From Sphingomonadaceae bacterium (GTDB lineage Bacteria > Pseudomonadota > Alphaproteobacteria > Sphingomonadales > Sphingomonadaceae), in NCBI GenBank assembly GCA_019239915.1, contig JAFAZF010000063.1, positions 1-64,000 of the forward strand: DNA of 64,000 nt, given 5' to 3'. Below are positions 49,109 through 51,790 of the stretch, one piece after another; within the stretch, counting starts at the first letter, position 1, and each line of letters starts with the position of its first letter. A program made the translations under genes and the position numbers. The notes under the pieces were generated by a model. It was not told the origin of the DNA and did no database searches. It was given only the letters and a program-made list of their open reading frames with translations.

Positions 49109-51790
49109 TCAGTCCAGGTTCGGCCGCAGCCAGCGCTCGGCGGTCTTAAGGTCCGCGCCGCGCCGCACGGCATAGTCCTCGAGCTGATCGCGACCGATGC
49201 GCGCGACACCGAAATATTGGCTGTCGGGATGGCCGAAGTAGAAGCCTGAAACCGCCGCCGTCGGCAGCATCGCGAAGCTCTCCGTGAGCGTCAGCCCGAT
49301 CTTGCCCGCATCCAGCATATCGAACAGGATCGGCTTGAGGCTGTGATCTGGACAGGCCGGGTAGCCGGGTGCGGGGCGGATGCCGCGATATTGCTCGCGG
49401 ATCAGCGCCTCGTTGTCGAGCTGCTCGCCGGCGGCATAGCCCCAGAGCTCGCGGCGGACATGGGCATGCAGGCGTTCGGCAAACGCTTCCGCCAGGCGAT
49501 CCGCGAGCGCCTTGAGCAGGATGTCAGAATAATCGTCATGATTGGCCTTGAAGCGCGCGATGTGCGGCTCGATGCCGTGGATGCCGACCGCGAAGCCGCC
49601 CAGCCAATCGCCATCCGGCGAGATCCAGTCGGCGAGGCACATGTTCGGCCGCCCCTCGCGCTTCTTCATCTGCTGACGGAGGAAGGAGAGGCGAACCTCC
49701 TCCTCCCCTTCAGGTGAGGAGATCGGGAGGTGGGGCTGCTCCACCCCAACCCCTCCCCTGAAGGGGAGCGGCTTCACGAGGACATCGTCCCCGTCCCGCC
49801 GGCACGGCCACAGCGCCGCGACGCCACGGGCCGTGAGCCATTTCTCTTCAACGATTTGCGCGAGCATCTTCTTTGCGTCGGCAAAGAGACTGCGCGCGCT
49901 CTCGCCGACGATCGCATCGTCGAGGATTGCCGGATAGGTGCCGGCCAGCTCCCAGGCGCGAAAGAAGGGCGTCCAGTCGATATAAGGCTGCAGATCCGCG
50001 AGCGGCCAATCGTCGAAGCAATGACGGCCCGGCTGCAGCGGCGCCGGCGGTACTAGCGAGGCATCGAACGGCGCCCGGTTGGCGCGCGCCTCCGCGATCG
50101 TGGCGAGCTCGTTCTGCCCCTTGCCTTCGCGCGCGACACGCACCGCTTCGTAGTCGGCGGCGGTGCGCGCGACGAAGCCGTCGCGCTGCGTGTCGCTCAT
50201 CAGCGTCGAGGCGACGCCAACCGCGCGGCTGGCGTCGAGCACATGCACGACCGGCCCCTCATAGGCCGGGGCGATGCGGAGCGCGGTGTGAACTTTCGAC
50301 GTCGTCGCGCCGCCGATCAGCAGCGGGATCGCGAGCTCCGCGCGCGTCATCTCCTCCGCGACGGTCACCATCTCGTCGAGCGATGGCGTGATGAGGCCGG
50401 AAAGCCCGATCATGTCGGCATCGTTGGCGGCAGCGCTTTCCAGGATCGTCGACCACGGCACCATCACGCCGAGATCGATCACCTCAAAGCCGTTGCACTG
50501 GAGCACGACGCCGACGATGTTCTTGCCGATATCGTGCACGTCGCCCTTCACCGTGGCCATGATGATGCGGCCCTTGGCCTTCTGCCCGGCGCTCTTCTCG
50601 GCCTCGATGAACGGCAGCAGGTGCGCAACCGCCTTCTTCATGACACGTGCGCTCTTAACGACTTGCGGCAGGAACATCTTGCCCGATCCGAAGAGATCGC
50701 CGACCACGTTCATGCCGTCCATCAGCGGCCCTTCGATCACCTCGATCGGCCGTGCGAAATTCTGCCGCGCCTCCTCGGTATCCGCGACGACATAGGCGTC
50801 GAGGCCTTTCACCAGCGCATGCTCGAGCCGCTTGACGACGTCCCAGCCGCGCCATTCCTCGGCGGCCTTTTCCGCGGCAGCATCCTTGCCCTTGAAGCGC
50901 TCGGCGATCGCGATCAGCCGCTCGGTCGGGCTTTCGAACCCCGACTCCGGGCGATTGGGCCGGTTGAGGATGACGTCCTCGGCGGCCTCGCGCAGCCCGG
51001 GATCGATCGTGTCGTAGACGTCGAGCTGACCGGCGTTGACGATGGCCATGTCCATCCCCGCGGGGATGGCGTGGTAGAGAAAGATCGAGTGCATCGCGCG
51101 CCTGACCGGCTCGTTGCCGCGGAACGAGAAGCTCAGGTTGGAAAGCCCGCCCGAAATGTGGGCATGCGGGCAGCGTGCGCGAATTTCCTTAGTCGCTTCA
51201 ATGAAGTCGACGGCATAGTTGTTATGCTCTTCGATGCCGGTCGCGATTGCGAAGATGTTGGGATCGAAGATGATGTCCTCGGGAGGGAAGCCGTCCTCCA
51301 CGAGAAGCGTGTAGGCGCGCTCGCAGATCTCGATCTTGCGCGCCTTGGTGTCCGCCTGGCCAACCTCGTCAAACGCCATCACCACGACGGCGGCGCCATA
51401 AGCGCGCACCTTGCGGGCATGCGCGAGGAACGCCTCCTCACCCTCCTTCATGCTGATCGAGTTGACGATCGGCTTGCCCGAGACGCATTTCAGCCCGGCC
51501 TCGATCACCGACCATTTCGAGCTGTCCACCATCACCGGCACGCGCGCGATGTCGGGCTCGGCGGCGATCAGCTTGAGGAAGGTGGTCATCGCGTGCTCGG
51601 CGTCGAGCAGGCCTTCGTCCATGTTGACGTCGATCACCTGTGCGCCGTTCTCGACCTGCGCGCGCGCGACATCGACCGCCTTGGCGTAATCGCCGGCCAT
51701 GATCAGCTTCTTGAACGCCGCCGATCCGGTGACGTTGGTACGCTCGCCGATGTTGACGAAATTGGAGGAGGAGGCGGGGGTGTCGGTCAT
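49109..51790 (-). CDS. metH: Methionine synthase, pterin-binding, cobalamin-binding and activation domains (large part of split MetH)
   Basis: [48 protein letters not shown]-terminal [17 protein letters not shown]...[21 protein letters not shown]. Confidence 0.95.
49698..49774. repeat. Palindromic repeat element inside metH coding sequence, in frame
   Basis: 12-bp perfect inverted arms ctccccttcagg (49703-49714) and cctgaaggggag (49757-49768); encodes [25 protein letters not shown]. Confidence 0.75.

Follow-up and report, generated by a model that had tools for sequence, protein, structure and literature searches.

The stretch of DNA analyzed here (the window) comprises 64,000 nucleotides from a Sphingomonadaceae bacterium (NCBI GenBank assembly GCA_019239915.1, contig JAFAZF010000063.1, positions 1 to 64,000 of the forward strand), whose high-GC genome of 3.6 Mb in 85 contigs is termed G000. 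The window encodes a methionine synthase, MetH, in which the coding sequence for the activation domain contains an in-frame palindromic DNA insert. The following features are located in and around the insert:

49109–51790, minus strand: metH, covering the pterin-binding, B12-binding and activation domains; an uninterrupted open reading frame (ORF) of 893 amino acids with no stop, scoring above the cut-off of NCBIfam TIGR02082.
49700–49771, minus strand: insert-coding DNA in metH, 24 codons corresponding to residues 79–102 of the C-terminal piece P0001, as placed by alignment with 80+ MetH proteins.
49738–49773, minus strand: first unit resembling the intrastrand triplex motif (TM), hence TM-like (5′ in the sense of the gene), AGCCGCTCCCCTTCAGGGGAGGGGTTGGGGTGGAGC, near the consensus and scoring 46.0 bits with unit model R1.
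49703–49730, plus strand: second TM-like unit, inverted and degenerate, CTCCCCTTCAGGTGAGGAGATCGGGAGG, recognized as one side of a 28-bp inverted repeat.

An earlier reading of this stretch from its letters alone (the sequence-only reading) had described an in-frame palindrome with perfect 12-bp arms in MetH, and this insert is confirmed. The arms, CTCCCCTTCAGG at 49703–49714 and CCTGAAGGGGAG at 49757–49768, are the outermost part of a 28-bp inverted repeat (49703–49730 and 49741–49768) whose two sides are 82% complementary and flank a 10-nucleotide centre. The insert is positioned about 80 residues inside the activation domain (Pfam Met_synt_B12, residues 597–878 of the ORF), where the span from GDD to LRQQ comprises 41 amino acids, compared with 17–25 in insert-free MetH proteins, a net gain of about 20 residues. 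The RNA fold of the palindrome was calculated at −54 kcal/mol, compared with −42.4 kcal/mol in shuffled sequences (z score, −3.35).

The sequence-only reading had also seen in this palindrome the look of a dispersed element, which proved correct, and absence of the repeat from the rest of the genome is ruled out. A BLAST search of the genome identified 33 matches to the metH palindrome, the best of which are 97% identical over 32–34 nucleotides, and the unit model identified at least 135 matches (E ≤ 0.05) at about 75 places, a figure that includes four site entries added by hand from BLAST matches and flank reading; 36 of these places are head-to-head doublets of 90–125 bp. In the copies that were read, the full element consists of two G/C-rich units of about 36 nucleotides, arranged head to head around a spacer of about 30 nucleotides, with a total length of about 100 bp. 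The unit consensus is AAGCCCCTCCC-TTCCA-GGGAGGGG-TT-GGGGTGGGT, and a variant unit reads TCTCCCC...GGGGAGGGG-TCGGGGGTGGGT. The copy in metH falls short of this standard length, its centre being almost gone and its second unit degenerate. An Rfam search of the element found no family near the gathering score. The doublets leave 3.8 of the six reading frames open, as do random genomic 101-mers, and the element is thus without special design for coding; with this many frames open in a GC-rich genome, the survival of coding insertions is nevertheless possible. Among other genomes, the unit model matches 140 times in G038 and 40 times in Sphingomonas Leaf34, with no matches in G001 and G004.

To place the insert among its relatives, 81 genomes (G000 and 80 others) were searched, 74 of which encode MetH. 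The sequence-only reading had named conservation of the insert in most MetH proteins as the outcome that would speak against it; in the alignment the insert is missing from most relatives. In G038, which bears another genus code, a full-length doublet from this family (55 residues) occupies the identical MetH junction with the frame unchanged, and the metH DNA of the two genomes aligns across both junctions and differs by a 35-nucleotide internal gap and small frame-keeping changes. The corresponding loop of Sphingomonas Leaf34 holds a GAGAGGG-type TM doublet. In G009, the loop is occupied by an unrelated palindrome, termed family B (TTCGTCCTGAGCGAAGTCGAAGGAC...), which has 16 matches in the G009 genome; this insertion is G009's own, as its nearest MetH relatives, G005 and G008, have an empty loop. 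Outside the sphingomonads, two species of Lysobacter, two of Pedobacter and Anaerolineae have repeat-like sequence in this loop; the insert of Pedobacter terrae was checked and is repeated in its own genome (16 matches), and the others were judged by reading only. Repeat-like DNA such as GATTCCCGATTCTCGATTCCCC is seen in the MetH loops of L117 and L118 (Lysobacter), L125 (Anaerolineae) and L150 (Pedobacter). Across 108 MetH sequences with 725 core columns, all inserts of at least 10 residues but one fall at columns 520–526, and short loops in both MetH and RNase R are found in G001 and G004, which have neither the TM element nor family B. A contig titled Bacillus sp. 2B10 (L082) has a metH of sphingomonad type that closely resembles the one in Sphingomonas Leaf67; the record is probably mislabeled.

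An AlphaFold prediction based on a 41-sequence alignment (mean predicted local distance difference test score, pLDDT, 85.2) places the insert between strands 74–77 and 104–107, with residues 83–92 and 94–99 below a pLDDT of 50; the remainder of the model is confident. The best structural matches in the PDB are to the reactivation domain of E. coli MetH (TM-score 0.82), and in the PDB sequence alignment the insert falls at the short YRDETRTHV loop of the E. coli protein; the invariant RPAPGYPA stretch (residues 210–217) lies elsewhere in the chain. The insert is thus predicted to form a disordered loop at a beta-hairpin turn that leaves the fold of the reactivation domain intact. Its location in this domain, the stability of the hairpin relative to shuffled sequences and the agreement with G038 in orientation, frame and junction would speak for an insert kept for a function, either as an mRNA hairpin that tunes translation or mRNA stability or as a peptide that affects MetH reactivation. 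Such a function is nonetheless improbable, since other species have this loop filled by unrelated sequences of 10–31 residues, closely related genomes have no insert, the peptide is predicted to be disordered and the second arm of the G000 copy is degenerate.

The ORFs of G000 that run through TM copies were screened for conserved domains, and five genes contain a copy within a domain or between domains, in every case in frame: MetH, RNase R, Mfd, UvrA and HrpB. RNase R carries two tandem TM doublets in its catalytic RNB domain, amounting to about 75 extra residues (L006, C26:101682-101866 and a neighboring copy). The Mfd copy is located between D3 and the RNA-polymerase-interacting domain, the UvrA copy after the UvrB-interaction domain and the HrpB copy ahead of the C-terminal domain, and each of these four inserts is missing in most of the 8–10 relatives compared. 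Five is a lower bound, as the screen resolved ORFs with a Pfam match; the count excludes TM copies ahead of a NirB-like reductase and ahead of a YggT gene, which are probably upstream of the genes rather than internal. In-gene copies form a small minority, because most copies sit where no conserved gene runs across. That the metH palindrome is a chance G/C-rich inverted repeat or an assembly artefact is extremely unlikely, even though the genome is GC-rich and in many contigs and a contig break of another assembly, G002, falls in this loop of MetH, where both contig ends bear a further palindrome-like sequence (L324 C17 start and L326 C18 end): no match to the exact core pattern is expected in shuffles of the window, identity to the many dispersed copies reaches 97%, the same insert recurs in the independent assembly G038, and all five in-gene cases keep the frame.

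The loops that received these copies are also occupied by other repeats. Family B (TTCGTCCTGAGCGAAGTCGAAGG) has 58–77 matches per genome in G000, G003, G005, G006, G007 and G038, both strands of the palindrome being counted, and none in G001 and G004. For family B, copies at the RNase R site of two relatives, G005 and G003, are confirmed by their position, as is a copy at the UvrA site of G005; similar peptides were recognized by eye in UvrA of G006 and G003 and in RNase R of G007, as was a TM-variant peptide in UvrA of G007. At the positions matching the Mfd and HrpB inserts, no recognized repeat was seen in the relatives. Within G000 itself, none of the 40 best family-B sites is inside a conserved domain; the copies near GatB, HisA, MurB, glutathione synthetase and an enolase-like gene were rejected as in-gene candidates, since all of them precede the first domain. 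The MetH, RNase R and UvrA loops are recurrent landing sites, those of RNase R and UvrA having been hit by at least two families. The arrival of several repeat families at the same few codons of three genes could also be explained by targeting at the DNA level, through a hot spot of DNA structure or sequence at these positions of metH, rnr and uvrA, and not by tolerance of the loop. We consider this very unlikely, since the DNA of the site is not conserved among sphingomonads, Lysobacter, Pedobacter and Anaerolineae, which have the protein loop as their common feature, and the elements otherwise occupy about 75 unrelated, mostly non-coding places.

These observations are very probably explained by a non-autonomous element that inserted in frame at permissive loops and was tolerated there, in analogy to the Rickettsia palindromic elements (RPEs) but with different families involved. 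The metH palindrome is a middle-shortened copy of a non-autonomous dispersed doublet of TM-like units, which would have inserted into the coding sequence at the beta-hairpin turn of the reactivation domain. We propose that the insertion was retained because its net length is a multiple of three and its frame is free of stops, so that the ribosome would read through it and produce a MetH with about 20 extra, probably disordered residues. Insertion by some route, followed by a selection that lets only frame-keeping insertions in loops survive, is likewise proposed; the peptide is presumably made and tolerated, and selection, rather than targeting, would stand behind the shared sites. As regards the mode of movement, two PF01797 (Y1) matches in G000 were considered as a possible REP-associated tyrosine transposase (RAYT) that mobilizes the element and were rejected, as they look IS200-type: the one that was typed scored 146.6 bits for IS200 and 39.4 for REP_Tyr_transpos, below the cut-off of 80. 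No target-site duplication was seen by eye in the flanks of the 36 doublets, the ends of which are ambiguous.

Several points weigh against this interpretation. With neither a visible target-site duplication nor a mobilizer found, transposition is a candidate route only. The junction shared by G000 and G038 may represent one inherited insertion or two separate events, which the MetH tree does not tell apart. Loops may also be lengthened by other routes, as G003 (L033), G007 (L034) and G006 (L036) have 44-residue MetH loops with a common alanine-rich insert and no recognizable repeat; these could be an old, decayed insertion. Finally, translation of the insert and a working MetH are predictions from the sequence.

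The window contains a further copy of the element outside metH, which the sequence-only reading had not described; nor had it described the unrelated repeats in the same loop elsewhere or the additional genes hit:

51801–51912, no strand assigned: second TM doublet, lying in the intergenic stretch that separates the two ORFs of methionine synthase; unit model R1 matches at 51877–51912 (minus strand, 26.9 bits) and 51801–51836 (plus strand, 20.5 bits).

This doublet occupies the 128-bp gap between the metH ORF (49109–51790) and the ORF at 51919–53016, which by its sequence is the homocysteine-binding half of methionine synthase. The lengths of the metH ORFs in relatives suggest that the split of methionine synthase is general and not caused by the element.

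As for its broader meaning, we lean slightly toward the view that protein loops of free-living bacteria are being diversified, on a wide scale, by the capture of unrelated non-coding palindromes, a process in which the same permissive hairpins (in the reactivation domain of MetH, the RNB domain of RNase R, and UvrA after its UvrB-interaction domain) are repeatedly hit by the dispersed repeat of each lineage. The landing sites would mark loops where enzymes tolerate a foreign peptide, each lineage's insertions would amount to natural experiments on how much a protein loop tolerates, and such loops may be taken for domains or errors by annotation pipelines. As far as the literature was searched, two findings are new, namely that sphingomonads have coding palindromes from several families and that repeats without relation to each other reuse the same loops: in a search short on subscription journals, no paper was found on coding palindromes in sphingomonads and no description of unrelated families sharing landing loops across species.

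Among papers giving similar consensus strings, only that of Holder et al. (2015) was relevant; it concerns intergenic copies, near ORFs, of the intrastrand triplex motif TM_ECO of E. coli, which has the form CCCTCTCCC-loop-GGGAGAGGG-TT-GGGGTGAGGG and occurs as inverted pairs of type A and type B units (PMC4666352). The G000 element shares with TM_ECO the succession of a pyrimidine block, a short loop, a purine block, 2–3 nucleotides and a mirrored purine block, the inverted pairing of two subtypes and the dispersed distribution, whereas its units contain GGGAGGGG/GGGGTGGG instead of GGGAGAGGG/GGGGTGAGGG and some of its copies are inside reading frames. Third-strand triads (G-G and A-T) reach at least 7/8 in all 27 units read (27/27), compared with 36% of sequences with a shuffled 3′ part, and composition thus explains part of this match; the units may be called TM-like by block layout and triads, and are candidates for triplex formation. 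As in REP, BIME and REPIN sequences, the units are short, palindromic, often in inverted pairs and mostly extragenic, but no RAYT was found in G000, and no GTAG or CGTC tag was seen in the units read. The intragenic ERIC/RU repeats of enterobacteria (Delihas, 2007; PMC2759123) and QMITE1 of Coxiella (PMC5896051) are small mobile repeats with reading frames joined to ORFs of the host; they differ from the G000 element in sequence and host, and the insertions described here lie within conserved domains of core enzymes and recur at the same loop.

The likeness to RPEs suggested by the sequence-only reading holds for behavior, while the family is a different one, a doublet of TM-like units. Protein-coding palindromes are reportedly unique to Rickettsia, in the words of the title of a 2002 article by Ogata. 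RPEs are dispersed palindromic sequences of about 100–150 bp that have entered unrelated housekeeping genes in frame, at sites compatible with the protein fold (Ogata, 2000, 2002, as described in PMC10969869). The G000 element is likewise palindromic, dispersed over coding and non-coding DNA, and present at fold-compatible sites of unrelated housekeeping genes as in-frame, stop-free copies that are absent in most relatives; unlike RPEs, it belongs to another host group, has a different, G/C-rich sequence and has only a small minority of its copies in genes. It is likened to the families RPE-1 to RPE-10 by behavior alone, with no claim of membership, and by host and, as far as was read, by sequence it appears to stand outside both the RPEs and the enterobacterial repeats of Delihas. 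Since several unrelated palindrome families behave like RPEs in free-living sphingomonads, and other repeat-like sequences fill the MetH loop in Lysobacter, Pedobacter and Anaerolineae, what was an oddity of Rickettsia becomes a general process that can be tested.
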